In this document: positions 521 to 61,704 of the stretch, in pieces
How the letters are laid out: the number at the start of each line of letters is the position of its first letter
How positions within the stretch are numbered: position 1 is the first letter of the stretch
Position numbers and translations under genes: made by a program
Source of the DNA: Neobacillus sp. YX16
Lineage (GTDB): Bacteria; Bacillota; Bacilli; Bacillales; Cytobacillaceae
Length of the DNA stretch: 64,000 nt
Direction of reading: 5' to 3'
Assembly (NCBI RefSeq): GCF_030123505.1
Contig: NZ_CP126115.1
Coordinates: 2,990,001-3,054,000 of the forward strand
The notes under the pieces: model-generated
Database searches by the model: none
What the model was told of the DNA's origin: nothing
What the model saw: the letters and a program-made list of their open reading frames with translations, nothing else

Positions 521-627
521 AAGTTTGTGAAATAATGTTCTTAAACTATAGGGTGCGTTAGCGTAAGTTCGGTGCTGTCATTTTGGCAGCTCTTTTTATT
601 GGGTTAAAGGGGCAGAATAGTTAAAAA
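521..627 (+). repeat. Dispersed intergenic repeat, copy 1 (near complete)
   Basis: Carries every part of the family: AAGTTTGTGAA at 521, TTCTTAAACTATAGGGTGCGTTAG at 538-561 in parts, a GCTGTCA...TGGCAGC stem followed by TTTTT, and the second block GGGGCAGAATAGTTAA. The two blocks AACGGGTGC-GTTAGTT and AACGGGGCAG-GTTAGTT of the family are imperfect direct repeats flanking a terminator-like stem-loop. The 360-664 interval holds nothing else that I can support. Confidence 0.7.
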
Positions 628-664: not shown

Positions 665-895
665 ATGAAAATAATTACTATTGGCATAATATTGGTTGTT
701 GTTGGATGTAGCATTTTAGGGTGGTTAATTAAAGATGCCTACAAAAATAATAAAGGTGAAAGTAAAAAAAATAAAATTCTTTATTTATTATGGATAATAT
801 TAGGTGTCTTACTAGATACAAGTGGATTAATCGTTTTCGTTGGATTTATATTTTTAGGCGTTATTTTAATAATTTATCATCCAATCTTCAACTAA
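665..895 (+). CDS. Small two-helix membrane protein of unknown function
   Basis: A 76-residue protein starting at an ATG behind CCGAGGGAAATTT. It has a hydrophobic N-terminal segment (residues about 4-22, containing a VVGCS that could be a weak lipobox), a short Lys/Asn-rich hydrophilic loop (KNNKGESKKNK) and a second long hydrophobic stretch (about 38-72) that could hold one or two helices. The gene sits alone between two copies of the dispersed repeat, and copy 2 begins directly at its stop codon and probably serves as its terminator. I do not recognise a family. Confidence 0.55.
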   Translation: MKIITIGIILVVVGCSILGWLIKDAYKNNKGESKKNKILYLLWIILGVLLDTSGLIVFVGFIFLGVILIIYHPIFN

Positions 896-959
896 AGGGT
901 GCGTTTCTCCCAGATCAGCTGCTTCGGCGGCTTTTTCTTATTGTACTAATGGGGCAGGT
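888..959 (+). repeat. Dispersed repeat, copy 2, 5' half (split by group II intron)
   Basis: Begins with AACTAAAGGGTGCG at the stop codon of the upstream gene. It continues with the stem CAGCTGCTTCGGCGGCTTTTTCTTATT and ends ACTAATGGGGCAGGT at 959. The expected continuation TAGTGAAAG appears only at 2905, after the intron, so the repeat was intact (GCAGGT+TAG) before intron insertion. Confidence 0.7.
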
Positions 960-3934: not shown

Positions 3935-3961
3935 AAGTTTGTGAATAAATGTACTTAAAGT
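3935..3961 (+). repeat. Dispersed repeat, copy 3, left part (split by IS110 element)
   Basis: AAAGTTTGTGAATAAATGTACTTAAAGT stops at 3961 where the IS110 element begins. Joining it to 5584 gives ACTTAAAGT+AACGGGTGCGTTAG, the exact family consensus. This identifies both the insertion point and the element ends. Confidence 0.8.
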
Positions 3962-4097
3962 AAACCAGCTAATAGTTTGTCAACATTTTTCAATTAAAAG
4001 TTTAATAACCTCATGTTATACTAAAAATATTCATGCCAAATAACCTTCCGTTATGCTCTTTTTGGAAGGTTTTGTTGTATTTAGTTAGATATAGATT

Positions 4098-5336
4098 TTA
4101 AGCTATATCTTGGAAAGTAGATCTGCTTTTTAATAAGGCGTAAATCCAATGTAAGAGCTTATTTGTACAGGCAATGATCGCTACTCTAAAGGGTTTTCCT
4201 TCTTCTCGTTTCTTATCGTAAAACTCTCGTAGTCTTCTATTGCGTGGAATAATCTCATCAGTCGTTTTCTTTTTACGGGAATCCCGAATACCACTTTGAA
4301 CAGCCATATACAAGGCGTGGCGAAGCCTACACGAGCCACGTTTGGTTATTCGGTTTACCGATGCAGTAAACTTTCCTGAAGAGTACACACTAGGATCTAT
4401 TCCAGCGAACGCAACTAACTTTTTGGCACCATTAAACCGATCTATCTCCCCAATTTCAGAAATAATCGTTGCAGCGATTTTTTCTCCGATTCCAGGGATA
4501 GATTGGAGGATTTCATATTCTTCAATTTTACTAGCGAGGGCATCTATTTCATCCGCAATATTGGATAGATGCTCTTGGTATTGAAGAACAATCTTAACCA
4601 AGATTTCAAGGTTAAAAATATGACTATCGTAGAGGTTGTTTTGAAAAGGATCACGAAGGGCTGCTTCTCTTAATTTCTGTGCCTTTTCCTTTGCCCATGA
4701 CTCCGAACGACTCATACATAACGAAGCTATCTTATCAGTTAACTCTTTTTCACTCACACTTAATACAGCCTTAGAAGTAGGGAACTCTAGTAAAGTAAGC
4801 AATGATACTTTCGAATATAGGCTTCCAAATACACCTCGATACTCTGGAAATACCTGATCGATTAAAGAATGAAGCTGTAACTTTGTTTTCGCTGATATTT
4901 CTGCAATACTCTCTTGTTGTCTTGTTAGATTACGAAGGTTTAAGAGTTGAACTCCACGCTTCTTGTAAGGCTCTAATTCTTCTTTATAATACAATTCACA
5001 AAGGTGATAAGCATCGATTGCATCTGTTTTTACCTTTCTTAGGCTTGAGCTCTTGGCTCTGTGTGAGATAAGAGGATTGACGATAATATAAACATATTTT
5101 TGTTCCTCTAAAAACTGAATAACGGGAATATGATAGTGCCCAGTTGATTCTAAAACGACCGAAGGTTGATGACCACCTGCTGATTTCTCAACTTCTTGAA
5201 GGAAATCTAATAAATTCCCCAAACCCTCAAGATCATGATTAATACTAAAGCTCTTACGGTATGGCTTACCTTTATCTAAAAAAGCTTGTACCTGACTTTC
5301 CCCTTTTGATACATCCAGACCAATGACTGGATTCAT
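4098..5336 (-). CDS. IS110-family transposase (DEDD recombinase), element A
   Basis: 412 residues. The N-terminal RuvC-like DEDD domain begins GLDVSKGES (Asp8) and continues with VLESTGHYH (Glu near 63) and VKTDAIDAY. A coiled middle region follows. The C-terminal Transposase_20 domain has IPGIGEKIAATIISEIG, and AGIDPSVYSSGKF provides the serine known to be the nucleophile in this family. The end motif FRVAIIACTNKLLHW is intact. It is about 70% identical to the protein at 14095 and carries an extra KKKTTDEIIPRNRR segment near residue 358. Predicted to recombine DNA together with the element's own bridge RNA. No inactivating lesion is seen. Confidence 0.95.
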   Translation of the reverse strand: MNPVIGLDVSKGESQVQAFLDKGKPYRKSFSINHDLEGLGNLLDFLQEVEKSAGGHQPSVVLESTGHYHIPVIQFLEEQKYVYIIVNPLISHRAKSSSLRKVKTDAIDAYHLCELYYKEELEPYKKRGVQLLNLRNLTRQQESIAEISAKTKLQLHSLIDQVFPEYRGVFGSLYSKVSLLTLLEFPTSKAVLSVSEKELTDKIASLCMSRSESWAKEKAQKLREAALRDPFQNNLYDSHIFNLEILVKIVLQYQEHLSNIADEIDALASKIEEYEILQSIPGIGEKIAATIISEIGEIDRFNGAKKLVAFAGIDPSVYSSGKFTASVNRITKRGSCRLRHALYMAVQSGIRDSRKKKTTDEIIPRNRRLREFYDKKREEGKPFRVAIIACTNKLLHWIYALLKSRSTFQDIA

Positions 5337-5364
5337 ACTTTATCTCCTCCTAGAAATGCAATAT

Positions 5365-5520
5365 TAGTCGGTATCCCCTAAGGCTTCTTGTAATGTCATA
5401 GGTTCGCTTGTAAAACGGGATCTATGTCCCAACGAGCCTGAAACATGTTTATACAAGTAGGGGGTGAACAGTTTAGCTAACGGGATTGAATCCCACGGGT
5501 GCGACGTTCTACCCCGACTA
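5365..5520 (-). ncRNA. Candidate bridge RNA of IS110 element A
   Basis: Noncoding segment between the element left end and the transposase, read on the minus strand. A terminal stem closes it: TAGTCGG (5520-5514) pairs with CCGACTA (5371-5365). It is alignable with the equivalent region of element B, sharing blocks such as CCCCCTACTTGTA-AAACATGTTT and GTTGGGACA. One internal loop contains CGCACCCGT, identical to the nine bases just left of the insertion point in element orientation (CGCACCCGT|T). That is what a left target guide in a target-binding loop would look like. IS110 bridge RNAs in this position are established knowledge; this assignment is inference from position, conservation and the guide match. 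Confidence 0.65.
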
Positions 5521-5583
5521 CCGTAATCATAAGACCATATAAAAAAAGGTCAACCAGAAAAATCTGGATAACCTTATATTACG

Positions 5584-5630
5584 AACGGGTGCGTTAGTTT
5601 AAGACTAGAGGCGCTGCTTTAATGAAGATA
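5584..5630 (+). repeat. Dispersed repeat, copy 3, right part
   Basis: AACGGGTGCGTTAGTTTAAG followed by the start of a GGCGCTGC stem. It continues the half-copy ending at 3961 and is cut short by the following gene; the T-run and second block are missing. Confidence 0.7.
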
Positions 5631-5645
5631 ATTGGAGAAGATAAT

Positions 5646-6184
5646 GTGAAGATAGATATGGTATTTGATTATGAGATAGGTAATGATTTAACTTCAAATA
5701 TACAAGAATTGTTAAGCGAATGTTTTCAAGAAGACTTTCCAAAAACAGAATTTATTTCAAACAATTACCTCATTTTAGATTTGTAGTTTTTAACGACAAA
5801 AATCAACTTGTAGGACAGGTAGGAATAGATTACAGAGTGATGAATCTTAACGGAAATCCTATAAGAGTGCTTGGTCTAATTGATTTATGTGTCACCCAAA
5901 ACACTCGCTCACAGGGGATAGGTTCGATGTTACTTTTAGAAATTGAACAGTTTTGTTGCAATAGAAATATTGATTTTTTATTGTTATTTGCTGACTACAA
6001 AACGTTGTATTTAAAAAATGGGTACAAGTCAGTTACGAACAAATGTAAATGGTTAAAAATTGACCATATAAGTCAAATTACAAGGGATATAGGTTATGAA
6101 GTAATTGATGGATTAATGAATAAAGAAGTTGGTAAGTCTGGGTGGAGCGAAGGAGATCTAGATTTTTTAGGCTATCTTTATTAA
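5646..6184 (+). pseudogene. GNAT acetyltransferase with a single-base frameshift
   Basis: Two frames join into one GNAT. The 5' part from GTG 5646 (behind GGAGAAG) reads VKIDMVFDYEIGNDLT...ECFQEDFPK. The 3' part continues NRIYFKQLPHFRFVVFNDKN...CVTQNTRSQGIGSMLL..., including the acetyl-CoA loop (Q/R-x-x-G-x-G type: TRSQGIGS). The switch occurs at CCAAAAACAG near 5739-5747, where one A fewer than needed (five instead of six) breaks the frame. An ATG at 5622 is an alternative start. It could be a true pseudogene or a homopolymer assembly error. The substrate is unknown; the nearest role is a generic N-acetyltransferase. Confidence 0.75.
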
Positions 6185-6185
6185 G

Positions 6186-6272
6186 CTAACGGGTCCGATA
6201 GGTGAATTGGGAGTTGTCGATACGGCAGCTCCTATTGCTTATTGTGCTAACGAAGCGGGTTTGTTGAAAAAC
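6186..6272 (+). repeat. Dispersed repeat, copy 4
   Basis: CTAACGGGTCCGATAGGTGAATTGGG, then a stem GGAGTTGTCGATACGGCAGCTCC and the second block CTAACGAAGCGGGTTTG. It begins two bases after the acetyltransferase stop and lacks the GTTTGTGAA leader. Confidence 0.65.
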
Positions 6273-6319
6273 AATAAAAAAAACCAACCGAATATAGGAT
6301 GGTTTTCAGTGAAACTTTA

Positions 6320-7309
6320 TCAATTAGATAATTCTCTACGATCGACCGAATGCGGTGGTTCCTCGAACCATTCATTAGCAATCATGATTTCCGCACAGTC
6401 TTCCGCGAGTTTGACATCATTTTTAATTGCAGAAGCATATTTGAGTCCTAGATCGCGCCGCATGGAACCGGACATGGCAGTTCCATAATATGCCATGGCA
6501 GATTGAATAAGAAAGGCACAATGGAAAATCATCAATTTATCGGAAAAAGGTGCTGTCTCGGAATCGGTGATATGGGTATCCCAGGAAATCGACGAACTGA
6601 TAAAGTCCTCATGCAGGATTGAACGAAAAATCGAAAGATGCTCTTCTGTCTGTTCCACCACCCGTTGGAAAAATGTCTGAATTTCTTTCGACTCAGCAGT
6701 TTGGCTAAAACCTAAGATTAAATCTTTTGCGAGTGTACTCTTCTGTAAATTATAATAAAGACTGCTGATTTCAATAACGTTCAAGGGTCGATGGACCCCT
6801 AACCAACCGGCAAGAAAACTTTGTTTTTTAGCAAATTCCACTTCTTCTGGCAAGGAAATGGTAGGAACCCGGTCCGATAGTCCCTTAGATTTTAACATGT
6901 CTAAGGTTGTATCATATATCTCAGAAGCGCCTTTGAATGCTTCTAAATAAAATCTTCGTACGTCCAGCCTGTGAGATGTGGTCATTCCGAGTGAATAAGC
7001 GGTTAATCCATGGGTAGTCATTCCGTGAAGATAAAACAGCCAAAATTCATCAGAAAATAAGCGAGGAGCATCAAGATGGACATCTTTCTCCGTAAATCCA
7101 TGCGGAATCGGAAACTGTTCTTTTTGAAAAATCTCAGTAATCATTTGAAGGAGATGATTGGTCAGTTGTTGTGCTTTTTCAAAAATGGAATAGATGTCGG
7201 AATCCATAATGGTTTTTAAAGCATAGGAATTGACGCACCGTGCCAACGTGTTGTTGAGATAGGGGGTCCAAAGATTCGATACATCCAGTTCTACGATTTT
7301 TTTAATCAT
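6320..7309 (-). CDS. DUF3231 family protein (tandem ferritin-like bundles)
   Basis: 329 residues with ATG 8 bases after TTGGAGGC. It consists almost entirely of predicted amphipathic helices and contains two related halves of about 160 residues (LWTPYLNNTLARC... and LPEEVEFAKKQSFLAGWLG...), as is typical of the Bacillus DUF3231 family, whose length is about 330. Family motifs include FSDEFWLFYLHGMTTHGL and the C-terminal YYGTAMSGSMRRDLG. The biochemical function of DUF3231 is not known to me; four-helix bundles similar to ferritin or CotF are often proposed. Monocistronic. The CotF-type coat genes lie one kilobase away, but the link is only suggestive. Confidence 0.85.
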   Translation of the reverse strand: MIKKIVELDVSNLWTPYLNNTLARCVNSYALKTIMDSDIYSIFEKAQQLTNHLLQMITEIFQKEQFPIPHGFTEKDVHLDAPRLFSDEFWLFYLHGMTTHGLTAYSLGMTTSHRLDVRRFYLEAFKGASEIYDTTLDMLKSKGLSDRVPTISLPEEVEFAKKQSFLAGWLGVHRPLNVIEISSLYYNLQKSTLAKDLILGFSQTAESKEIQTFFQRVVEQTEEHLSIFRSILHEDFISSSISWDTHITDSETAPFSDKLMIFHCAFLIQSAMAYYGTAMSGSMRRDLGLKYASAIKNDVKLAEDCAEIMIANEWFEEPPHSVDRRELSN

Positions 7310-8408
7310 TGCTATGCCTCCAAAACAATTTTTTTAACCCTATCCAAGCCATGATAAAAACCAATTTATTTTGCACTTTTTTATTAGCTTTTTTTAGGTA
7401 TTAATTTACGGCTACTTGCTTTATTGACAGGACATATTGTACACAATTATGTGAAGTAATATACTTAAATGTAGTGTAGTGCTTTATTAAGTGAATAAGT
7501 CATTTTGAAGTTATTTTCAGAGATTGTCCATTCCTCTATTGGAAGAAAGTACAGGCAATTTGTCACTTTACTTGGAGCCTCTGCGGGCAAGATTATGAGC
7601 CATGAAGCCAGATATATTAAGAATTCTGGCTCAGCCAAAATCAGGCTATCATGCCCGCCTCTCCAAATAAAGTGCACGTCACTACAAGGACGAATTATTA
7701 GGAATTAAATTAAAATCTTATCTATGAAAAACTTTATTTTAACCACTTTCCTTTGGAAAGGACTACAGAAACAAACGGGTGTGTTGGTCCAGGAGGATTA
7801 ACGGCCTTTTTTGTTGAATTCCTTATTGTACCACCATGAAAATAAGTTTCTTCAAGATTAGAAAAATGACAAAACTTAAGAAGACCCTGCTCAATCGTTA
7901 AAAAAAGAGGAGAGCAATAATTATAAGTCTATGGATTAGGGTTGACTGGATTAAGGTCAGTATCAGTATGGACACTTCCTAACCATTTTCATTCTTTGTG
8001 GAGCAGCACTCATTTTGTTCTGCATGGATGGCTAACGGGGTAGGTACTATTAGGGTTCCAAGGAAAATGGATAGGGAATGTTTCAATGTGGGTCCAGGAG
8101 AACACAGACTGTTAAATTTAAGGGATATGGAGCCCTTTTTAAGAAAAATACAGTTTTGAAATACTCTCCTGTCGATGCTTGTTTTTGTGTTAGCTGTGGT
8201 AATGTATTATTGCTAAAAGTAAGAAACCCAGAAAAGTTCATTTGAATTTTATACAATGATTACGGTAATGAAAGGGTAACAGTGACAGGCGGCTTTTCTT
8301 CTTCAACTGACGGGCAGGTGAAGATCTACCTGTGTAATATATTGAAGGAAAAAATCAGCTGTTTAATAGCAGCTGATTTTTTATTGCATAAAACATACGA
8401 TACTGCCC
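7310..8408. other. 1.1 kb without a supportable gene; repeat debris
   Basis: Contains a leader-like fragment TTATGTGAAGTAATATACTTAAA (from 7453), a GCCAGA/TCTGGC hairpin near 7598-7622, repeat copy 5, and GGCTAACGGGGTAGGT near 8031 that resembles the family's second block. Short frames such as 7505-7708 have no ribosome site and no recognisable protein. A block around 7995-8040 (TTTTCATTCT...GGATGGCTAACGGG) resembles 21437-21490 loosely. I read this as decayed insertions. Confidence 0.5.
7773..7832 (+). repeat. Dispersed repeat, copy 5 (variant stem)
   Basis: AAACGGGTGTGTTGGTCCAGGAGGATTAACGGCC, T-run, then GAATTCCTTATTG. The same variant, with the GTTGATCC...GGATTAAACGCC stem, is found at 20021-20077, so this is a subfamily. 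Confidence 0.55.
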
Positions 8409-8708
8409 CTATTGATCTTTAAGGTTTAAAGCTGTATGCGCATCCTGCAGTCTTACATTTACTTGGTCACCTAAATTATTAGGGTGATAATATCCATTGG
8501 CAATCATAAAATCTGTTATCTTGGCATGTGTATCCACTGCATTTCTTAATTGCTCGCGAAGAGCTGATTTCAGTTCAGGTGTAGCTGTTTCCGTAATAGC
8601 AAATGCTAGATTTCTGACGGCAGATTTAGATGAAATCAGAAAATCCGAGGCGATTGCCCGTTCTGTTAATCCTCCCATACCAGCCATATTTTGCAGGAGA
8701 TTATTCAT
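8409..8708 (-). CDS. CotF-family spore coat protein (YraD-like)
   Basis: 99 residues, with a Gly/Met-rich N-terminus (NMAGMGGL) followed by a CotF-type helical domain: ERAIASDFLISSKSAVRNLAFAITETATPEL, then THAKITDFMIANGYYHP. Its length equals B. subtilis YraD. It overlaps the end of the upstream coat gene by eight bases (8701-8708), so the two are translationally coupled. Together with the divergent genes at 9058-10798 the set reproduces the B. subtilis yraG-yraF-adhB-yraE-yraD content, known as sporulation-expressed coat proteins. It is expected in the spore coat. Confidence 0.88.
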   Translation of the reverse strand: MNNLLQNMAGMGGLTERAIASDFLISSKSAVRNLAFAITETATPELKSALREQLRNAVDTHAKITDFMIANGYYHPNNLGDQVNVRLQDAHTALNLKDQ

Positions 8709-8913
8709 TGTGAGTCTCCTCCCTGTTTGTAATAAAGTTCTGAAGTTGCTTCAGACCTTGACTTCCTGATTCTAAATCACCAGAAAGAATTGTTTTAAGA
8801 TCTCCATCAGGAAGCAATTTGCTCATAGTTACAGTTTTTGTTAAACATACTGTTTTAAATGCAATTAACTCGAGTGTCTCAAGTGTTTCATGAAGTCCTA
8901 AATATTTTGTCAA
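8701..8913 (-). CDS. Small CotF-associated spore coat protein (YraE-like)
   Basis: 70 residues from a TTG start at 8913-8911 behind TTGGAGAGA. Contains LGLHETLETLELIAFKTVCLTKT, the N-terminal half of the CotF fold that in Bacillus is often encoded as a separate small ORF upstream of the CotF-domain partner. It is homologous to the divergent gene at 9058 (YHETMETHEVLNLKTVCLLKS). First gene of a two-gene coat operon. Confidence 0.85.
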   Translation of the reverse strand: MTKYLGLHETLETLELIAFKTVCLTKTVTMSKLLPDGDLKTILSGDLESGSQGLKQLQNFITNREETHNE

Positions 8914-9057
8914 GAGTATCTCTCCAATCTTTAAAAACTTCTCTTATCTTACTTCAGACAGGAGATTCATATTCCACCAAAAATATTCCATAACCAGTTA
9001 TATTTCATTGAATAATTTTCACATAGTAAAGGGATTTTAATTTCAGGAGGTGAAGTT

Positions 9058-9273
9058 ATGGAGAAGGAAATCTTGGCTTATCATGAAACAATGGAAACAC
9101 ATGAGGTATTAAACCTGAAAACTGTATGCTTATTGAAATCAAAGCTTATGCAGGGGCTTTGCTTCGATAATGATTTAAAAGCACTGATGGAAAAAGATGT
9201 TCAACAATCAATCGCAGCGATAAATGAACTTAAAGAATTTTATAAAGGTGCAAGAACCAATTATATAGGATGA
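9058..9273 (+). CDS. Small CotF-associated spore coat protein (YraG-like)
   Basis: 71 residues with ATG behind a perfect AGGAGGTGAAG. It is paralogous to the divergently transcribed 8701-8913 product: both start with a short tail, then the HETMETHEV-LK-TVCL helix, then a second helix ending in a Leu/Lys-rich tail. It leads the operon 9058-10798, separated from the next gene by ten bases. The 144-bp divergent intergenic region probably holds sporulation promoters; I could not place a sigma box with confidence. Confidence 0.85.
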   Translation: MEKEILAYHETMETHEVLNLKTVCLLKSKLMQGLCFDNDLKALMEKDVQQSIAAINELKEFYKGARTNYIG

Positions 9274-9283
9274 GGTGAAAAAA

Positions 9284-9646
9284 ATGGAAATGGATTATTT
9301 GGATCCCCAAGGGGCTGAACATATGCCAGAAATGGCAGATTCAGGCATTGCATTGGAATTTCTTCTTTCAGTTAAAACGGGCATTCATACATATGCCATT
9401 GCGTTAACTGAAACAGCTAGCCCGGAGTTAAGGGAAGCATTATACAGGCAAATGGAACAATCCATTGATTTACACACAGAGATATCTGAATTGATGATAA
9501 GCAAGGGCTGGTTATATCCGAACGATGTTGGCAAGCAAGTTGAGTTGGATCTTAAATCTGCCGACAATGCTTTAATGATCGCCGGGATGAACATATTCCC
9601 TAATGATACGGATAGACTTGGAATGTTCGCAACGCCTAATAAATAA
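9284..9646 (+). CDS. CotF-family spore coat protein (YraF-like)
   Basis: 120 residues if started at ATG 9284, which lies 5 bases after GAGGTGA; the upstream in-frame GTG at 9275 is inside that ribosome site and is rejected. The CotF core DSGIALEFLLSVKTGIHTYAIALTETASPELREALYRQ parallels the 8409 protein, followed by LHTEISELMISKGWLYP. The C-terminal tail MIAGMNIFPNDTDRLGMF is Met/Asn-rich. Middle gene of the coat-adh operon; its product should be assembled on the spore surface. Confidence 0.88.
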   Translation: MEMDYLDPQGAEHMPEMADSGIALEFLLSVKTGIHTYAIALTETASPELREALYRQMEQSIDLHTEISELMISKGWLYPNDVGKQVELDLKSADNALMIAGMNIFPNDTDRLGMFATPNK

Positions 9647-9661
9647 GGGAGGTAAGAAAAA

Positions 9662-10798
9662 ATGAAAGCTGTCACGTACCAGGGGAATAAAAATGTCCAG
9701 GTTAAAGAAGTAAAAGACCCAAAAATTAAAAATGGCGATGATATCATTGTAAAAATAACAACTTCTGCTATATGCGGATCCGATTTGCATTTGATTCATC
9801 AAATGATTCCCAATTTGCCAACTGATTACGTAATAGGCCATGAACCGATGGGGGTAGTCGAAGAAGTAGGACCGGAAGTAACAAAATTGAAAAAAGGGGA
9901 TCGGGTAATTATTCCCTTTAATGTAAGCTGTGGGCATTGCTGGTACTGTAACCATGACTTAACTAGCCAATGTGATAATTCCAACCCTCATGGTGACATG
10001 GGCGGTTTCTTTGGATATTCAGAAACAACCGGTGGATATGCTGGCGGACAAGCTGAATATATGCGTGTTCCATATGGAAACTTTACTCCATTCAAATTAC
10101 CGGAGAACTGCGAAGTAGAAGATGAAAAGTTGGTGTTACTTGCAGATGCAGCCTCAACAGCTTATTGGAGTGTAGATCACTCTGGTGTCAAAGCTGGTGA
10201 TACTGTCATCGTTTTAGGATGTGGGCCAGTAGGTCTCCTTGCTCAAAAATTTGCCTGGTATAAAGGTGCTGAGCGAGTTATTGCTGTCGATTACATCAAT
10301 TACCGGCTTGATCATGCGAAACGAACCAATAAAGTGGAGACTGTAAATTTTGAGGAACATGAAAACGTTGGCGAATATTTAAGAGAGATAACACAAGGCG
10401 GAGCAGATATCGTTATTGATTGTTCAGGTATGAGCGGCAAGATGACTCCTCTTGAATATCTTGCATCCGGAATGAAGCTTCATGGCGGTGCAATGGGCGG
10501 GCTTGTCATTGCGTCACAGGCTGTACGCAAAGCTGGTACCATCCAAATTACCGGTGTTTATGGGGGACGTTATAATGGTTTCCCGTTAGGAGACATCTTC
10601 CAAAGAAATGTTGACATTAAAACGGGTCAAGCCCCAGTTATTCCGTATATGCCTTTTCTTTATAATCTTATATCTGAAGGAAAGGTTGATATTGGTGATG
10701 TAATTACACATGTTCTTCCATTAGACCAGGCAAAGCATGGATACGAAGTTTTTGACACAAGGACCGATAATTGTATAAAAGTCATTCTAAAACCTTAA
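9662..10798 (+). CDS. adhB: Zinc-dependent medium-chain alcohol dehydrogenase, sporulation cluster
   Basis: 378 residues, typical for MDR enzymes. The catalytic zinc ligands are Cys in SAICGSDLH and the His/Glu of VIGHEPMGVVEEVG. The structural zinc site is present in shortened form around SCGHCWYCNHDLTSQCD. The Rossmann motif is VIVLGCGPVGLLAQKFA, with an acidic DYINYR after strand beta-2 suggesting NAD(H) preference. It lies 15 bases after the coat gene in the same operon, with a GGGAGG ribosome site, matching B. subtilis adhB among yra coat genes. The substrate is unknown; formaldehyde-type or glycol oxidation is possible. Confidence 0.9.
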   Translation: MKAVTYQGNKNVQVKEVKDPKIKNGDDIIVKITTSAICGSDLHLIHQMIPNLPTDYVIGHEPMGVVEEVGPEVTKLKKGDRVIIPFNVSCGHCWYCNHDLTSQCDNSNPHGDMGGFFGYSETTGGYAGGQAEYMRVPYGNFTPFKLPENCEVEDEKLVLLADAASTAYWSVDHSGVKAGDTVIVLGCGPVGLLAQKFAWYKGAERVIAVDYINYRLDHAKRTNKVETVNFEEHENVGEYLREITQGGADIVIDCSGMSGKMTPLEYLASGMKLHGGAMGGLVIASQAVRKAGTIQITGVYGGRYNGFPLGDIFQRNVDIKTGQAPVIPYMPFLYNLISEGKVDIGDVITHVLPLDQAKHGYEVFDTRTDNCIKVILKP

Positions 10799-11151
10799 AT
10801 TGAATAAATCTAAGATGAATTCCTATAAATTCTTTTAAAAATGGAGATTGTTATTTTGTATAACAAGGACTTATAATTTGGGATAGCAGTTTTTCGTATA
10901 CTATTAACAACTATCTACACCGCAATACTTGCATCACAATTAATGGCCACAAAACATAAGTTTGATTACCTTTATTTCACAATTAAATTTACAGAAAGAT
11001 AAAACAATCATTTAAGGCGGTGATCATCCATCGTCTTTTTTGTTGAATCAATGATTTTCTTAATTACCGATAATGGTTATAAGTATTCATTGAATATCCT
11101 TGATTTCTTGAAGGACAGCAGAGCAAATATGTAAAATTATTCACCATAAGG
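10799..11151. other. AT-rich intergenic stretch
   Basis: No supportable gene. AAGGCGGTGATCATCCATCG followed by TCTTTTTTGTTGAATC at about 11016-11047 looks like a degraded terminator of the same style as repeat copies 5 and 11. Confidence 0.4.
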
Positions 11152-11256
11152 AAACTTTGTGAAACATTGTACTTAAACTATAGGGTGCAATAGTTAAAGA
11201 TGGGATCGCTGCGGCGGTCTTTTTGCTTGTTCAGCTAACGAAGCAGGTTAGCGAGG
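11152..11256 (+). repeat. Dispersed repeat, copy 6 (near complete)
   Basis: AACTTTGTGAAACATTGTACTTAAACTATAGGGTGCAATAG, a short GATCGCTGCGGCGGTC stem plus TTTTT, and the second block CAGCTAACGAAGCAGGTTAGCGAGG. It ends 38 bases before an IS110 transposase relic, and its GCAGGTTAG is the sequence into which the group II intron inserted in copy 2. Confidence 0.7.
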
Positions 11257-11293
11257 AAGATCAAGACTCCGACGCTTCCTCTACTTAGCAACC

Positions 11294-11485
11294 ATGAGCC
11301 TTGTGATGAATAACCCTGAATTTAAAGCGATCCATTCCCATAATGTGAAGGTTAAAAAGATAAAGAAAATGAAATCAATAATGAAACTGATAGGAAAACT
11401 AGCCAGGATTTTTGTAGGAATAGCACGACGAAACGAGTCTTACTGTCCAAGTAAAATCCAAGTATTAATCCCTTTAGCAGCATAG
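11294..11485 (+). pseudogene. C-terminal remnant of an IS110-family transposase
   Basis: Sixty-three codons ending in a normal stop: LVMNNPEFKAIHSHNV...KKMKSIMKLIGKLARIFVGIARRNESY. The motif (x-NPEFKAxH...KKMKSxMKLxGKLxRI) is the extreme C-terminus of IS110/IS1111-type transposases; compare NSAFKALHVYY...LKKMQSLIALCNKLIRIFF in the element at 15600. The catalytic DEDD domain is gone. The structured 3' noncoding part of the element still follows (11620-11745), so this is a 5'-deleted insertion. Confidence 0.75.
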
Positions 11486-11619
11486 AAATAATACATTAGT
11501 TTTATAAATGCATCATTTAAAATTGTTAACTTTAATTTTTGAATGTTGTCTTATTCGTAGGATTTCAAATATGTACGGAGTACCAGGTTTCTTAAACAAA
11601 AGGGCACTGTGACCCATCA

Positions 11620-11745
11620 GGTTAGCATAACTGGCCTCCACCCCTTGGATAGGCATGACGAAGGAATGAGAGGGCGATTGACCCGTTGAGACATGGGTGG
11701 GAAAGCCTCCAGGGGCGGCGTGGAGATGTACATTATATGGTAAAA
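11620..11745 (+). ncRNA. Relic of an IS110 3' noncoding RNA segment
   Basis: Shares an ordered set of blocks with the region downstream of the transposase at 15600-16894: CCTCCACC, GACGAAGGAAT, GAGCGA-like, CATGGG-GG, GCCTCCA and GTGGA-ATG. Because the protein parts differ, conservation of the noncoding blocks suggests a structured RNA, plausibly a bridge RNA placed 3' of the gene as in the IS1111-like subgroup. The right end reads GTGGAGATGTACATTATATGG; a third copy of this end lies inverted at 13070-13145. Confidence 0.5.
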
Positions 11746-12000
11746 TATGGAGTGGTAGCTGACTCCTTTATTTATGCCTTCACGAAGCCAAGATGATCTG
11801 AACTCATTTCAATTACCCGTAAATCCAATTACAAGGGTTATGAAATCCTGCGAATAAGTGAGCATTCAAGAGATATTGGTATCAAACTTAGGGAGTTTAG
11901 GAGGAATTACTTGGAAAACGTTAATAATAAACTTAATGGACTTTCTACCAAATTAAAGAGTCCCATTTTCGGGTATATTCTTGATAAATGTTCATTAGAA

Positions 12001-12033
12001 ATGACGTATGAATTTTGGTATACGTCATTTTCC
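12001..12033. terminator. Stem-loop between converging signals
   Basis: ATGACGTAT (12001-12009) pairs with ATACGTCAT (12020-12028), followed by TTTCC on the plus strand. It lies just beyond the stop of the minus-strand pseudogene at 12052. Confidence 0.5.
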
Positions 12034-12051
12034 TTGTTTAGTAATGTTTTA

Positions 12052-12375
12052 TTATCCAGGAAGTATGGTGTTAGGGTTATCAAGACAAATTGTATAGGCA
12101 AGACAGGATTCGGACGGCGTTGGAAGTATTATAACAGGTTGAACACTTCCAGGTTCTAATCTTACCAGGGTAAGAACTCCATTATTCAATGCCCAAACTA
12201 CCATTGGACATATGCCTCGATTTTCAAGTTCTGCTTGAACGGAAGGGTTGGCTAATTCTTCGACTGTTGGAGTACTAAATTCTGGATCGGCAGTAAGGTT
12301 ATCACAGTGAGCGGGGTTCGATGCGACCAATATAGTTTGCTGAGGCAACCTTTTTTCTTTTTGAACAATTAGCAA
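12052..12375 (-). pseudogene. Truncated copy of the spore-surface-like protein at 1-359
   Basis: The C-terminal 85 or so residues (from CDNLTADPEFSTPTVEEL to the stop after NPNTILPG) match the protein at the window start. The first 23 residues do not; they derive from unrelated sequence running into repeat copy 7. The only in-frame start is a TTG at 12375 with no ribosome site, where the intact copy has AAAGGAGGTGAA. The homology break sits just upstream of the CDNLT codons at about 12310. I infer a recombination that replaced the 5' end and promoter, leaving an unexpressed 3' fragment. It does supply the missing C-terminal sequence of the partial gene at 1-359. Confidence 0.65.
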
Positions 12376-12482
12376 ATTTGTGAAGAAATGTACTTAAAGA
12401 AACGGGCGCTAGAGTTGAAGATAGGGGTTGCCACGTGGCTGCCCTTTTTCTTGTTTTACTTACGGGGATATTTAGTACAATC
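12373..12482 (+). repeat. Dispersed repeat, copy 7 (complete)
   Basis: CAAATTTGTGAAGAAATGTACTTAAAGAAACGGGCGCTAG, then the strong stem GGGTTGCCACGTGGCTGCCC with a T-run, and TTACGGGGATATTTAGT. All family parts are present. Confidence 0.7.
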
Positions 12483-12556
12483 AGAAAAGGGAAAAAGAGA
12501 CCTATTGACGAATTGATAAAATTAGTAATTCAATGTCATATTTACTGGAGGTATTT

Positions 12557-12907
12557 ATGAATCCTATACTAAATCAAATCGGGACAGTTTTTATTCCTGT
12601 ACGTAATATTGAAGAGGCACGTAATTGGTATTGTGACATACTTGGCTTAGCAGCAGAAGGCGAAATATTATTTGGTCATTTGTTTATAGTACCTATGAAT
12701 GGAACAGGGATTGTATTAGATAGCAAAATTTTTTCAGTTGAAAATATACTCAAAGTCCCACTATTTCATTTCAATACTAATAATATAGAAAATGCTTACG
12801 AGTCTATGAGGGAAAAGAATGTAGAAATAACAACAGGAATAGAGCATAACCAATGGTTTAATTTTAAAGACCCTGATGGCAATCATTTGATGGTGTGTAA
12901 GTGTTAA
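12557..12907 (+). CDS. VOC (glyoxalase/dioxygenase) superfamily protein
   Basis: 116 residues from ATG 12557, seven bases after CTGGAGG; an in-frame upstream ATG (12533) has no ribosome site. It shows the paired beta-alpha-beta-beta-beta motif of VOC proteins: GTVFIPVRNIEEARNWYCDILGL, FHFNTNNIENAYESMREKNVEI and the closing FNFKDPDGNHLMVCKC with a metal-ligand-like position in the last strand. Single-domain VOC proteins usually dimerise to form the active site. The substrate cannot be told. It stands alone between two dispersed repeats. Confidence 0.85.
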   Translation: MNPILNQIGTVFIPVRNIEEARNWYCDILGLAAEGEILFGHLFIVPMNGTGIVLDSKIFSVENILKVPLFHFNTNNIENAYESMREKNVEITTGIEHNQWFNFKDPDGNHLMVCKC

Positions 12908-13015
12908 AACCTTCTTAAGCTCCCTCAGTTAGATACGATTATCTCTCAAAAACTCACTTATTGGCAGGATTTCAAAGCACTTAATAACCTTAGGGGACAA
13001 ATGAAATGAGTTTTT

Positions 13016-13205
13016 AGCAATTTGGCTAAATGAAAGCGTACTTAAATAAAGGGGTTAGGTATATCTCCATTAATTTCCATATAATGTACGGTCTCCACGC
13101 CACCCCTGTAGGTTTTCGCTCCCATGTCTAATGGGTTGCTAAGTTAGGGATTGAGGGCTGCTTCGGCAGCCCTTTTCTTGTTCCACTAGCGAAGCAGTAT
13201 AGTTA
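13016..13205 (+). repeat. Dispersed repeat, copy 8, interrupted by an inverted IS110 end
   Basis: Left part CAATTTGGCTAAATGAAAGCGTACTTAAATAAAGGGGTTAGG; right part GAGGGCTGCTTCGGCAGCCC (7-bp stem, TTCG loop, 13155-13172) with TTTTCTTGTTCCACTAGCGAAGCAG. About 75 bases in between (13070-13145) are foreign. Confidence 0.65.
13070..13145 (-). mobile_element. Fragment of an IS110-type 3' end
   Basis: On the minus strand it reads CATGGGAGCGAAAACCTACAG, then GGGTGGCGTGGAGACCGTAC and ATTATATGG, matching the end of the relic at 11690-11745 (GGGCGGCGTGGAGATGTACATTATATGG). No transposase is left. Confidence 0.6.
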
Positions 13206-13356
13206 AAATAAGGTTTGGGAATCAGTTCAATTGAATTGTAAAATATTTTAGGTTATTTTTAGTGTTTTCTTATATAAAATTTAAAATTAGTTGTTTGTTT
13301 GTCCAAGCATTTTACTTCCTTTTGAATTTAATAGAATCAAAAGGGAGGTGAAAGTA

Positions 13357-13719
13357 ATGAATAATAATGACGTTGTTTCTATTGGAGCAAATTGTGTAGT
13401 AAGAATTGGAAATCGGTTCTTTCTACTGGTAGAAATTGAAGTGGAAGATATAGATTTAGAGGAATTTGTTTTTATCCGAATTTCTGAGCGGGAATTTAGA
13501 ACACTAATAAGAGCGGGTGTTCAACGCTGTACAATTGCTGACCGCATTCCACGTAACAATGCGGAATTCATATGTGTTTTAATAGAAAATGGTCGAGCAT
13601 TTTTGGTTTTCGACGTGGAAAACAATGAAGACGAAGCTGTACTTGTTAGAATTTCATTAACAAGAGCAGAAGAGTTAATCCGTAGAGGAGCAATGAGATG
13701 TACTGTAATTAATAGATAA
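13357..13719 (+). CDS. Two-repeat small protein of unknown function
   Basis: 120 residues from ATG 13357 behind AAGGGAGGTGAAAG; the longer frame from 13291 is not supported. The protein is an internal duplication: repeat 1 FFLLVEIEV...VFIRISEREFRTLIRAGVQRCTI and repeat 2 AFLVFDVEN...VLVRISLTRAEELIRRGAMRCTV, each about 45-50 residues with alternating strands, a helix ending IRAG/IRRG and a Cys at the same place. Bacillaceae have similar small proteins of unknown role; a spore-structure role is only a guess. Monocistronic, with its own terminator at 13774. Confidence 0.7.
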   Translation: MNNNDVVSIGANCVVRIGNRFFLLVEIEVEDIDLEEFVFIRISEREFRTLIRAGVQRCTIADRIPRNNAEFICVLIENGRAFLVFDVENNEDEAVLVRISLTRAEELIRRGAMRCTVINR

Positions 13720-13773
13720 ATAAAAAAGTTATTATGGTTCTGCAAAGGGATACGAAAACTAATTTAACATATT

Positions 13774-13801
13774 GAGTCGTTTAGACGGCTCTTTTTTTTT
13801 T
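13774..13801 (+). terminator. Rho-independent terminator
   Basis: GAGTCGT (13774-13780) pairs with ACGGCTC (13785-13791, one G-T pair) and is followed by ten T. Confidence 0.8.
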
Positions 13802-13807
13802 AGAAAG

Positions 13808-13847
13808 CAAGTTTGTGAAATATTGTACTTAAAGTAACGGGAGCTTT
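13808..13847 (+). repeat. Dispersed repeat, copy 9, left part (split by IS110 element B)
   Basis: AAGTTTGTGAAATATTGTACTTAAAGTAACGGGAGCTTT, ending where element B starts. Confidence 0.7.
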
Positions 13848-13911
13848 CGTATTATAAGGTTAACCAGTTTTTACTGGTTGACCTTTTTTTAATAGAATCT
13901 ATTATATCAGT

Positions 13912-14066
13912 AGCCAGGGTAGGACGTACGGGTGCGTGGGACAAAGATTCCGTCAAGTAAACTGTCCGCCCCCTACTTGTAGAAACATGTTTGAGGCTGG
14001 TTGGGACAATGATCTCGCATAACAAGCGAAGCTATGATACTTCAAGATGGAATAGGGGTACTGGTA
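13912..14066 (+). ncRNA. Candidate bridge RNA of IS110 element B
   Basis: Noncoding region upstream of the transposase, alignable with the 5365-5520 region of element A. The outer stem is CCAGGGTA with its partner near GGTACTGG. Two candidate guide strings are seen. ACGGGTGCGT matches 8 of 10 bases of the left flank ACGGGAGCTT. AAGTAAAC pairs with 7 of 8 bases of the junction TTTACTT. Two unequal loops separated by the shared CCCCCTACTTGTAGAAACATG block agree with a target loop and a donor loop. Assignment rests on position, conservation and complementarity; folding was not computed. Confidence 0.6.
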
Positions 14067-14094
14067 AGTAATTTGAGAGAGGAAGAGATAAATA

Positions 14095-15297
14095 ATGAAT
14101 CCAGTAGTTGGTCTGGATATTTCCAGTGGGGAAAGTGAAGTTCAAGCATTTTTAGATAAGGGAAAACCTTATGGCAAAAGTTTTAAGGTATCGCACACCA
14201 ATGAATCGTTAGGAGTATTATTTCACTTTATGAGAAAGATAGAGAATGAGTCTGGTCAAAAACCGACTGTCATATTAGAAGCAACAGGGCATTACCACAC
14301 GCCAGTCATTCAGCTCTTAGAGGAACATAATTATTTGTATATAATGGTTAATCCACTACTGTCATATCAAGCAAAGAAATCAAGTTTACGAAAGGTTAAA
14401 ACCGATGCAGTCGATGCCTATTGCTTATGTGAACTTTTTTACAAGGAAGAGTTGGATCCATATAAAAAGCGTGGGACTCAGCTGTTAAACCTTCGTAACC
14501 TTACAAGACAACACGAAACTCTGACAGGTCTTTATGTACAAGCTAAGTTGCAGTTTAATGCGATATTAGAACAAGTATTTCCAGAGTATAAAGGCGTTTT
14601 CGGAGATATGTATTCGAAGGTTTCATTAAATACACTGTTGGAATATACCACATCTGAATCTGTTTTGAGGGAAGAGGAATCTAAATTAGCAGATAAGATT
14701 GCGAGTTTATGTACAAGTCGTTCGGAGCGTTGGGCAAACGAAAGAGCAAAGAAGTTGATGGAGGCAGCTCAGCGTAACCCATTTAAGAGCACACTATATC
14801 ATAGTCATTTGAATAGCTTAGAGATGTATATTCAGATGCTTCTCCAATACCAAGAGCATCTTGCCAAGTTGGACGGGCGAATAGATGCTTTGGCAGGAGA
14901 AATTGAAGAATATAAGATTATCCAATCGATCCCTGGAATTGGTGAAAAAATCGCTGCAACGATTCTTTCTGAAATTGGTGAGATCGAGAGGTTTAATCAT
15001 CCTAAAAAACTGGTTGCCTTCTCTGGAATAGATCCGAGTGTCCATTCGTCTGGTAAATTTACAGCGACGATAAATCGGATTACCAAAAGAGGTTCAAGCA
15101 GATTGCGTCATGCCTTATATATGGCTGTTCTCTGTGGAATAAGGGGCTCTCGCAATAAGAAGTTAAAAGAGTTCTATGATAAAAAGCGAGAAGAAGGAAA
15201 GCCCTTTAAGGTAGCAATGATTGCTTGTACAAATAAACTTGTTCATTGGATTTTTGCATTACTAAAAAGTAAAGAAACTTTCCTTGATTTGGCTTAA
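14095..15297 (+). CDS. IS110-family transposase (DEDD recombinase), element B
   Basis: 400 residues, ATG behind GAGAGGAAGAG. The DEDD domain starts GLDISSGESE (Asp8), followed by ILEATGHYHTP and VKTDAVDAYCL. The C-terminal domain has IPGIGEKIAATILSEIG and SGIDPSVHSSGKF with the family's serine. About 70% identical to the element A product; the 12-residue segment after SRKKK of A is absent here. No stop or frameshift, so it may be active. It works with the RNA encoded directly upstream. Confidence 0.95.
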   Translation: MNPVVGLDISSGESEVQAFLDKGKPYGKSFKVSHTNESLGVLFHFMRKIENESGQKPTVILEATGHYHTPVIQLLEEHNYLYIMVNPLLSYQAKKSSLRKVKTDAVDAYCLCELFYKEELDPYKKRGTQLLNLRNLTRQHETLTGLYVQAKLQFNAILEQVFPEYKGVFGDMYSKVSLNTLLEYTTSESVLREEESKLADKIASLCTSRSERWANERAKKLMEAAQRNPFKSTLYHSHLNSLEMYIQMLLQYQEHLAKLDGRIDALAGEIEEYKIIQSIPGIGEKIAATILSEIGEIERFNHPKKLVAFSGIDPSVHSSGKFTATINRITKRGSSRLRHALYMAVLCGIRGSRNKKLKEFYDKKREEGKPFKVAMIACTNKLVHWIFALLKSKETFLDLA

Positions 15298-15433
15298 GAG
15301 ATACAATTAAGTAATACATGAAAAACCTTCCAAGAAAGAAGATGAGGAAGGTTATTTAGCATGAACATTTTTAGTATATCCTTAGTTGTTTTATTTTTTT
15401 ATAGAAAAATATTGACATCCTATTAGCTGGTTT

Positions 15434-15492
15434 ACTTCAACTATGGGGTAATGCCATTTTCTTGTTCCACTAACGGAGCAGCATTCCTGTAA
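15434..15492 (+). repeat. Dispersed repeat, copy 9, right part
   Basis: ACTTCAACTATGGGGTAATGCC, TTTTCTTGTTCCACTAACGGAGCAG. The stem is reduced. It is followed directly by the third IS110 element. Confidence 0.6.
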
Positions 15493-15599
15493 TGAATGAA
15501 AAAGAGGTTTGAACAAAAAAAGAACCTCTTGGTAGAATAAGAGAGTCCTAAAAGCTGGCCAGCAAAAAAGGACAATCCCAAATACCAGGAGGTCTTGAA

Positions 15600-16894
15600 A
15601 TGAATTATAACCAAAATGAAAAGATTGCTCAAATCACTTCTCAGACTCTTATTATAGGTGTAGATATTGCGAAATTCAAGCATGTTGCACGTGCACAGGA
15701 CTACAGAGGAATGGAGTTTGGTTCCCCTTGTTATTTTGATAATACCAAGCAAGGATTTCAACTGTTTCTTGATTGGATCAAAAATTAAAACTAGAACAAC
15801 ACATGGAAAAAGCGATCGTAGGGATGGAACCTACTGGCCACTATTGGCTAAACCTAGCTCATATTCTGAAAGAAAATCAAATAAAGTTTGTCGCTGTGAA
15901 CCCATTACATGTTAAGAGGAGTAAGGAACTTGACGATAATTCACCGACTAAAAACGATGTGAAAGATGCTAAAGTCATCGCTCAGTTGGTCAAGGACGGG
16001 AGATATGCTGAACCGACGATACCAAAAGGTGTTTATGCAGAACTTCGTGTGGCGAAAAAAATACGTGATCTCCTTACTGATGACCTTCAAACGGTGCAAG
16101 GCCAGATTCACAACTGGCTAGATCGCTATTTTCCTGAGTTTCTAACCGTCTTTAAGAGTTGGGAAGGTAAAGCAGCGTTGCAATTTTTAAGGTTAGGATC
16201 CTTACCAAATGACCTGATCAATTTCTCTGATCAGTACTTATTAGACCATCTACGGAAAGCAGTTAGTCGTAGTGTAGGAATAAATAAAATACAAGAGTTA
16301 AAACAAGCAGCTAAAGAGTCCATCGGACTTTGCCAAGGTTCAAATATGGCCAAATTAGAACTGGCCACTCTGCTTGATAAATATGACTTGATACAAGCGA
16401 AGTTCGAAGAACTAGATCAGAAGATAGATAACTTGATTGAACATATACCTGGTGTCCAGCAAATGTTAGCAATCAAGGGAGTGGGGAGAGATACGGTTGC
16501 CGGCTTCTTTGCAGAAGTGGGAGATCTACAAGGGTATTCGCACCCGAGACAAATCATAAAGTTAGCTGGATTAAGCTTGAAAGAGAATACTTCTGGCAAG
16601 CATAAAGGGCAAACAAGGATCTCTAAAAGGGGGAGGAAGAAGCTAAGGGCTCTCCTCTTCAGGGTGTGTATGATTATGGTCGCGAAGAACTCGGCCTTTA
16701 AAGCGCTGCATGTCTATTACACGCAACGTCCGAACAATCCTCTAAAGAAAATGCAGTCTCTGATTGCCTTGTGTAATAAGCTAATACGTATATTCTTTGC
16801 CATTGGAAAGAAACAATTTGAGTTTAGTGAAGAGAGAATGTTACAGGATATCCCTCATATGAGAGTAAACATAGAAGTTGAAAAGGTAGCATAA
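15600..16894 (+). pseudogene. IS110-family transposase with a one-base frameshift
   Basis: Frame 1 (15600-15788) encodes the start MNYNQNEKIAQ...LIIGVDIAKFKHVARAQ and stops after FLDWIKN. Frame 2 (from about 15773 to 16894) continues KLKLEQHMEKAIVGMEPTGHYW, then VKRSKELDDNSPTKNDVKDAKVIAQL, IKGVGRDTVAGFFAEVG, AGLSLKENTSGKHKGQ and the terminal domain. Adding one A to the AAAAA at 15779-15784 would give an uninterrupted protein of about 425 residues. Translation could also be rescued by slippage, but five A is a weak site. The ribosome site ACCAGGAGGTC is intact. Confidence 0.85.
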
Positions 16895-16949
16895 TGCAGT
16901 AAGAGCAGTAGGTAGGATAGGTTTTTAGGTGTTATAAGTCTCGGACATT

Positions 16950-17125
16950 TGAAGCACGGATTAGTCAGCAAAGCAACTAAACTTCGGGCAAGGACCCTGT
17001 GGGGCAGCATGACTGACATCCACCTCATGGAAAGGTTGGACGAAGGAATTTGAGAGCGAAGACTCTGTGAGGCATGGGAGGGTTGACCTCCATGAGAAAT
17101 GTGGACATCCACCAGTGCGATCATA
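16950..17125 (+). ncRNA. Candidate 3' bridge-type RNA of IS110 element C
   Basis: Downstream noncoding segment with several complementary strings (CTCCAT/ATGGAG-like, GTGGACATCCAC, CATCCACCTCATGG) and ordered block conservation with 11620-11745: GACATCCACC, GACGAAGGAAT, GAGCGA, CATGGGAGGG, GACCTCCA. The IS1111-like subgroup is known to carry its guide RNA 3' of the gene. Assignment is inference. The following 17130-17395 is AT-rich and empty. Confidence 0.5.
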
Positions 17126-17395
17126 TTTTTACTCATCCACCATTTTTTGTAAGTGTGTGGCTAATGAGCTATCAGTCTTTTTGCTTCAAAGACCCAAATT
17201 TATCCTTACGAGATAAATCCAACCAAAGTAGCGAGCTGTAAACCCTACAATAATAATCTATAAAATACTGAGAATACTGGAGAAAACGTGAGTTTTCACT
17301 TTGTTTATTGAGGGAGTTTTAGTTTAATAAGATAGGACTATTAGATTATTAAATTGAATAAATAAAATAGATAAAAAAGAAGAGAGGTAATAAAA

Positions 17396-17812: not shown

Positions 17813-17825
17813 ATATATTCTTCAA

Positions 17826-17905
17826 TTAACAGGTGTAAGAGTTAAAATGGAGATCCGTGCGGCGATCTTTTTTTCTTGTTCCACTAACGGGCTGTTTAGT
17901 TCAAT
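17826..17905 (+). repeat. Dispersed repeat, copy 10
   Basis: AACAGGTGTAAGAGTTAAAATGG, the short stem GATCCGTGCGGCGATC with seven T, then CTTGTTCCACTAACGGGCTGTTTAGTT. It may terminate the acetyltransferase gene. Confidence 0.65.
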
Positions 17906-61653: not shown

Positions 61654-61704
61654 TTGCACGAATATACTCGCAATTTTAATAGAATCAGAGTATCGATGGC
61701 TTCG

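Follow-up and report, generated by a model that had tools for sequence, protein, structure and literature searches.

Guide-carrying IS110 elements and their probable target, an integron-like array of paired sites in Neobacillus

When two related insertion sequences (ISs) occupy copies of one dispersed repeat, two questions arise: how do they find the repeat, and what is it that they have found? The window of our study, meaning the whole stretch of 64,000 nucleotides that was analysed, corresponds to C1:2990001-3054000 of the 6.23 Mb chromosome of Neobacillus sp. YX16 (the host), and it contains two such elements, A and B. An earlier note on this DNA had placed both in the same repeat, had described target guides in their 5' noncoding segments and had proposed a repeat-dedicated, guide-switching lineage; as tests it had named a conserved two-loop RNA fold and loop bases that covary with flanks in related copies. 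Our analysis identifies A and B as IS110-group elements of the IS110 family. Their guide mechanism is of an already known kind (IS621, seekRNA), and the novelty lies in the target, which is probably an integron-like cassette system parasitised by guided IS110 elements, as judged from sequence comparison. The repeat that A and B share is not the single motif first supposed but a composite with two target sites, R1 and R2, and both elements lie in R1:

3962..5583, minus strand: IS110 element A, including the copy of the TT core at 3962-3963; junctions aligned over ten host copies
4098..5336, minus strand: transposase of A, 412 amino acids (PF01548 106.6 bits, PF02371 85.9 bits)
3954..3961, plus strand: R1 site of A, outer arm part CTTAAAGT
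5584..5603, plus strand: R1 site of A, remainder AAC GGGTGC GTTAGTTTAAG, with core AA at 5584-5585
13848..15433, plus strand: IS110 element B, with core TT at 15432-15433, from the ten-copy alignment
14095..15297, plus strand: transposase of B, 400 amino acids (PF01548 99.1 bits, PF02371 90.1 bits)
13828..13847, plus strand: R1 site of B, left part CTTAAAGTAAC GGGAGC T plus core TT
15434..15441, plus strand: R1 site of B, right arm remainder ACTTCAAC

Both transposases combine PF01548 (DEDD_Tnp_IS110) with PF02371 (Transposase_20), above the cut-off in each case. A search of the host DNA returned 19 matches, of which ten are full length: A with five near copies (96-98%), three copies at 74-75% and B at 71%; some host copies have broken frames. 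In element orientation the ten have the left end CGTA(A/T)(A/T)ATAAGG and the right end TTAGCTGGT in common, and TT stands at both junctions, so that TT is the core for this host and the junctions proposed earlier hold, as do the lengths and motifs. A is flanked by CTTAAAGT (3954-3961) and AACGGGTGCG (5584-5593), while B has ACGGGAGCTTT directly before its start and ends at base 15433. Among other relatives, the first base of the left-junction TT is sometimes A. Where both ends could be located, the noncoding left end, upstream of the transposase gene, measures about 250 bases and the right end about 132-137. Intact, empty sites also exist: CTTAAAGTAACGGGTGCG is uninterrupted at two places, and a paralogous empty site (locus L035) lies at C1:2958513, next to a gene that is 98.8% identical to the one on the right of A.

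The long left ends contain the putative guides, at the following positions:

5362..5584, minus strand: left end of A, predicted to give a bridge RNA (two-loop consensus fold from 36 left ends)
5495..5503, minus strand: left target guide of A, CGCACCCGT
5473..5478, minus strand: right target guide of A, AGCTAA, which pairs with TTAGCT (own flank TTACTT, 4/6)
13847..14069, plus strand: left end of B with predicted bridge RNA (the same consensus fold)
13928..13937, plus strand: left target guide of B, ACGGGTGCGT
13955..13960, plus strand: right target guide of B, AAGTAA, which pairs with TTACTT (6/6)

An alignment of 36 diverse left ends folds as a 5' hairpin followed by a target stem-loop and a donor stem-loop, so that the two-loop fold is conserved across them. 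The target stem (columns 90-97 with 137-143) stands on an outer stem (85-89 with 244-248) and surrounds an inner hairpin (109-125), with the left guide in the 5' loop strand (98-108) and the right guide in the 3' loop strand (126-136); the donor stem-loop occupies columns 144-240. Changes on both sides were found in 9 of the 47 base pairs, the clearest being 86/247, 88/245 and 113/121 (10, 13 and 10 of the 36 sequences). Rfam 15, which may have no bridge RNA model, gave no match at E up to 1 over 3500-16500. In most copies the donor-loop motif GCTGGTT equals part of the right end AGCTGGTT, a correspondence seen by eye. The donor loop of A reads GCTCGTT instead of the GCTGGTT of its five near copies, and A may be impaired or inactive.

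The left guide of A is identical to its left flank over 9/9 bases and that of B agrees in 8/10, both as had been described. The register of the right guide was fixed on the ten-copy alignment as six bases, core included. The pairing of B's right guide across the junction stands (6/6), whereas the 8-base register assigned to it before does not. Right guides read AGCTAA in A, AAGTAA in B and AACTAA in L007 and L008, and the match is 6/6 in B, in L007 and L008, and in the A-type copies L002 and L004; the weak right-hand fit of A, already remarked upon, is explained by its own flank, TTACTT, which matches AGCTAA in 4/6. A reads R1 as CGCACCC and B reads the opposite strand as ACGGGTGC, the two guides being reverse complements over that stretch, which bears out the proposal that each addresses a different strand of one site. 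The two arms of that site come close to being inverted repeats, and for this reason TT plus an arm can be read by either right guide; arm-to-arm palindromy within single sites was not above that of re-dealt arms (4.82 vs a mean of 4.68 and a maximum of 4.91).

Special attention was given to whether guides and flanks change together among relatives. The fetched loci held 250 transposase starts, or 187 rows after removal of identical ones. It is important to note that this sample is non-random: it consists of 80 of the 528 GTDB-contig candidates, up to 30 loci per genome search, one viral contig and 97 further regions picked from candidate lists, and the 187 rows include a few copies present in two overlapping loci (e.g. 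L010, L027); the covariation counts use distinct sequences. A donor stem was found in 182 left ends, 15 of which failed the guide pattern and were omitted from the left-guide counts; these include eight with an ordinary CGCACCC guide before GTGGGTT, variants in L109, L118, L123 and L135, and the unrelated L071. The remaining two, L112 and L171, have a deletion in the left end that runs from target to guide, as if two copies of the guide sequence had recombined.

A left guide could be read in 167 rows, 160 of them with a usable left flank, which gave 138 distinct guide/flank pairs. Over 7 bases, with a shift of one base allowed, 7 matched in 48 pairs, 6 in 70, 5 in 14 and fewer in 6, that is, at least 5/7 in 132/138. 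The mean was 6.10 vs 4.29 for re-dealt pairs (largest of 500: 4.60) and, strictly in register, 5.02 vs 3.67 (largest of 2000: 3.99). The four pairs with three matches or fewer are L081 and L082, which have IS110-type sequence on the left, L163, with a poor flank, and L238, with a misplaced anchor. For the right guide, 144 distinct pairs matched at positions 3-6 in 2.94 of 4 bases on average vs 2.29 when re-dealt (largest of 2000: 2.50), and the single-position information exceeded all 500 shuffles at positions 3-6, barely so at 6, and not at 7 and 8. Both target guides thus follow the flanks, which is the covariation that had been named as a test. With the conserved fold and the empty sites described above, none of the three refuting outcomes listed in the earlier note was observed.

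Such matches could also arise as a by-product of shared ancestry, local duplication or compositional bias, with no RNA guidance involved. Related copies do share guide and target, and the re-dealing tests ignore relatedness. Two observations, however, make this explanation hardly credible. First, the guide class changes repeatedly on the transposase tree, with the flank following. Second, base pairing by itself predicts the two loop strands in which the matches fall, as in IS621 (PMC11208160). On a quick tree of 105 transposases, seven guide classes of our own definition need 22 changes by parsimony (shuffled mean 55.6); of its 102 inner branches, 39 carry a star and 31 are open, and the starred ones alone force 10 changes for the GCACCC class. 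The description "guide-switching" therefore holds at the level of the lineage but not as a recent switch of B's guide within this genome, since the opposite-strand guide of B marks a clade (7 of its 8 rows). Four left-guide types occur among the ten host copies, or three without the outermost bases. The guide of L007 reads R2 (ACTGCTC), and in other genera we found guides reading GCGCCC, TGGCCC or GCCCCC. The description "repeat-dedicated" holds for most sites: both arms are recognisable (at least 6/8) at 89/148 insertion sites and at least one at 131/148, where a shuffled-letter control gave 0 and 18. Locus L046, on a viral contig (IMG/VR), is a member of this IS110 group with a CTGCTC guide.

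What, then, is the repeat? Its unit consists of R1 (approximately CTTAAACTAAC GGGTGC GTTAGTTTAAG), a terminator-like hairpin with a T-run, and R2 (approximately TTCAACTAAC GGGGCA GTTTAGTTGAA). R1 and R2 are 28-bp sites with an 11-6-11 geometry of two 11-bp arms and a 6-bp spacer, a division into arms and spacer that is our own. Besides the copies split by A and B, the window contains:

540..567, plus strand: R1 site
886..913, plus strand: R1 site of the composite whose R2 holds a group II intron
940..957, plus strand: R2 site, arm ATTGTACTAAT, spacer GGGGCA, G
6180..6207, plus strand: R1 site after the gene right of A, spacer GGGTCC
11172..11199, plus strand: R1 site
12393..12420, plus strand: R1 site, spacer GGGCGC
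15464..15481, plus strand: R2 site of the repeat copy holding B, arm GTTCCACTAAC, spacer GGAGCA, G
17820..17905, plus strand: composite R1-hairpin-R2 site

Pattern matches in the host cluster at 0.66-0.72, 1.04-1.05, 2.93-3.02, 3.18, 3.99-4.03 and 5.92-5.96 Mb, and they outnumber those of the reversed pattern by 26 vs 6 in one scan and 39 vs 14 in another; scattered single matches are probably due to chance. Clustered sites are plus-strand up to about 3.2 Mb and minus-strand beyond 3.7 Mb, as though they followed the direction of replication, a pattern that the scattered singles do not share. The R1 core pattern occurs in 61/61 genomes of the genus, with 27 matches in the host vs 1 for the reversed control and a maximum, among the 61 genomes searched, of 266 vs 0 in genome G057. 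The bcr repeat of the B. cereus group (PMC6542083) was set aside as the identity of the repeat, no bcr sequence having been compared.

The arrangement of the sites was scanned in 388 kb from three Neobacillus-group genomes, in 11 stretches, of which three are regions of the host and eight are site-rich ones from G006 and G008. Where neighbouring sites are separated by less than 6 kb, both lie on the same strand in 298/316 cases; 92 of these 298 steps are shorter than 180 bp, 70 of them from R1 to R2, and 206 are longer. The 95 intervals from an R2 to an R1 have a median of 811 bp and contain one open reading frame of at least 80 amino acids in 61 cases, none in 15 and two to four in 19. The frames run along the site direction in 82 cases and opposite to it in 28, counts in which IS elements were left. 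The 11 stretches thus present a trait of the integron type, namely gene modules arrayed between sites of the same direction.

Some modules also recur elsewhere with borders at the sites. Comparison of the intervals gave 15 homologous pairs, six of which are overlaps of stretches (100% identity) and four IS copies; three of the other five were inspected. Module M1, a pair of Rrf2-like and NmrA-like genes (named by eye), is present in two host arrays on opposite strands with 97.6% identity; the homology extends from the right arm of R2 to the spacer of R1, and the hairpins differ on both sides. Relatives of M1 in G049 have the left hairpin of the host's second array and a different right one, and in G008 both hairpins differ. 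A gene of 334 amino acids occurs in two G008 arrays with its left border in R2, and the module at 6.3-7.3 kb of the window recurs in G008, where its borders fall in R2 on the left and in the left arm of R1 on the right. Another module, of three genes and also shared with G008, reaches beyond the adjoining hairpin at either edge, as far as R1 at one end and R2 at the other. The gene on the right of A looks GNAT-like by eye. Its homology with the 98.8% copy is bounded on the left by the R1 spacer, the place that A itself occupies in one of the two, and on the right by an R1 arm that just one of them has.

The hairpin with its T-run would also suit an ordinary extragenic repeat or terminator, similar to a repetitive extragenic palindrome (REP), which has no recombination function and is targeted in the manner of IS621 and ISPa11 on REPs; insertion into REPs is indeed known for IS621 and for members of IS1111 (PMC11208160, PMC11187229). 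We consider this unlikely in view of the direct-orientation arrays, the 11-6-11 geometry, the borders of shared modules at sites and the adjoining Xer-like genes.

These genes encode tyrosine recombinases of about 280 amino acids, which we call int. Two intact ones and two broken relatives lie in or beside the host arrays, and their best PDB chain match is XerD. The family was found in 33/60 genomes of the genus and, at E up to 1e-60, in 88/193 genomes and 20/25 genera of the family. The int gene lies between R1 and R2, antisense to the array; in integrons, intI likewise runs against its cassette array. Among 38 int loci, 30 of full length were scored and 8 partial ones omitted: R1 lies within 200 bp of the int 3' end in 23/30, R2 within 200 bp of the 5' end in 18/30 and both in 15/30, with 0 and 0 sites on the wrong strand. 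A counterpart of the attI primary site of integrons may be present beside int at these loci.

The same loci suggest another arrangement, in which the mobile unit is a minimal integrative element of about 1 kb (R1-hairpin-int-R2) that inserts between genes together with short, int-less R1-hairpin-R2 forms. R1 and R2 would then be attL and attR, the genes between units would be bystanders and IS110 would parasitise att sites. The position of int between R1 and R2, the constancy of the inner arms beside variable outer ones, and the common ends of short and long forms all fit this proposal, and homologous exchange between repeat copies could yield part of the module pattern. The proposal nevertheless seems rather unlikely, given that M1, the 334-amino-acid module of G008 and the module at about 6.3 kb of the window recur elsewhere with borders at sites and that gene spacing and direction follow the sites.

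Several results weigh against the integron-like reading and the guidance attached to it. The R1 core is no commoner than its control in several genomes (G005 4 vs 3, G059 1 vs 1); the G006 and G008 stretches had been selected for their many sites, and the same sequence had served to train the site models. The 206 longer steps comprise 92 from R2 to R1, 54 from R1 to R1, 34 from R2 to R2 and 26 from R1 to R2, a mixture to be expected if the scan misses some partner sites. Some relatives of M1 lack sites at one end or at both, and in more distant ones the genes occur without sites; the right borders of M2 and M4 and the left border of M5 are not at a recognisable site. At the int loci a single scored site was found in 11/30 and none in 4 (L341, L351, L355, L362), and in 7 and 10 loci the side in question also has a scoring site of the other type. 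Among the good left guide pairs, 37/132 are one base out of register (95 in register). No NCBIfam model passes for the recombinases, the best being of XerA type (211.5 and 196.4 bits, cut-off 220); the integron integrase model TIGR02249 reaches 98.1 and 79.6 bits (cut-off 265), and six composite sites tested for an attC-like fold gave z-scores of -0.41 to -0.96. As both the integrase model and the fold failed, we use the term integron-like rather than integron.

With these points included, we lean towards the view that the Bacillaceae have an integron-like system of their own, with paired 11-6-11 sites, a terminator and an Xer-like recombinase, whose joints are targeted by at least three kinds of guided elements, and that the IS110 guides track changes of the spacer. 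The three kinds named in it are two IS110 groups and a group II intron, the second and third being represented in the window as follows:

15482..17315 (ends approximate), plus strand: second-group IS110-family element in R2 of the repeat copy holding B
958..2904 (3' end approximate), plus strand: group II intron in R2, with RF02005 at 996-1233 and RF00029 at 2814-2904
1473-2801: reverse transcriptase of the group II intron

Two other inspected copies of the second IS110 group also begin at R2. In the copy of the window, the frame from 15605 has stops, and 15773-16894 is open. The intron is inserted after GGGGCAG, and the compared stretches hold seven near-identical copies, this one included, so that the host has others outside the window. 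At L341 and L360 an IS110 copy lies in R2 of an int unit. Apart from these guests, the window has a tandem duplication of about 0.9 kb at 59893-61704 (96.5% identity).

Taken as a mechanism, the integron-like reading would run as follows. The 5' noncoding end of each IS110 element would be transcribed into a bridge RNA. In the cell, one of its loops would read the target by pairing, the second loop would read the ends of the element itself, and the DEDD recombinase would join the circular element to the target at the TT core. The left guide would read the 6-bp spacer, and the right guide the arm and core of the 11-6-11 site. Paired sites (R1-hairpin-R2) would separate mostly single genes in direct-orientation arrays, and the Xer-like recombinases encoded in the arrays would probably excise and insert gene modules by recombining R1 and R2. 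The IS110 lineage would live on this family of sites and change its guides, to the opposite strand of R1 (A vs B), to R2 (L007) or to the spacers of other genera.

In the open-licence literature, as far as titles and abstract openings tell, no report of such arrays in Bacillaceae or of IS110 inside them was found. IntegronFinder 2.0 (PMC9024848) listed, in the phylum of the host, one complete integron and a few arrays without integrase. If the reading of the target is true, it adds integron-like gene capture to a phylum with few known integrons, and guide-carrying elements converge on the gene-cassette joints of Gram-positive bacteria as they do on attC. The 138 distinct left guide/target pairs, with their repeated guide changes, provide a natural series from which to derive how bridge RNAs choose targets, for example as regards the core, the length of the right guide and the tolerance of a shift by one base.

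Integrons consist of direct-orientation arrays of mostly single-gene modules with an antisense recombinase gene next to the site, and the arrays described here have these traits in common with them. Unlike integrons, they have an Xer-like recombinase without a passing IntI match, sites that do not fold as attC, and a joint made of two sites around a hairpin. In the pdif (dif) modules of Acinetobacter, genes lie between 28-bp sites with 11-bp arms and a 6-bp spacer. IS1202-family elements are not known to have a guide RNA, and elements of the IS1111-attC kind were reportedly treated by Tetu and Holmes (2008) and by Post and Hall (2009). The likeness to the Acinetobacter modules, bounded by 28-bp sites of two 11-bp arms and a 6-bp spacer, is one of geometry only (PMC10132070), and our arrays differ in that two site types, R1 and R2, are paired in one direction and in that recombinase genes lie within the arrays. 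The IS1202 family, at pdif/dif sites, is likewise an IS lineage dedicated to Xer-type sites, in another IS family (PMC10132070). ISKpn4 and ISPst6 (PMC11187229) share with our elements the habit of IS110/IS1111-type elements of living in cassette recombination sites; they are of the IS1111 type, with the RNA downstream and integron attC as target, whereas ours are of the IS110 type, with the RNA upstream and sites that do not fold as attC. Natural reprogramming has been reported in the same paper (PMC11187229).

The closest resemblance is to IS621 and the IS110 bridge RNA (PMC11208160). Common to both are a DEDD transposase with PF02371, an RNA in a long left end, a target in a dispersed repeat and a short core; a 5' hairpin followed by two stem-loops with internal loops; and a left guide that resembles the top strand of the left target beside a right guide complementary to the right target. 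Unlike IS621, the elements described here have a TT core, a right guide of about six bases that includes the core, and several guide types per genome, and their target is not a REP but a recombination-type 11-6-11 site in Bacillaceae.

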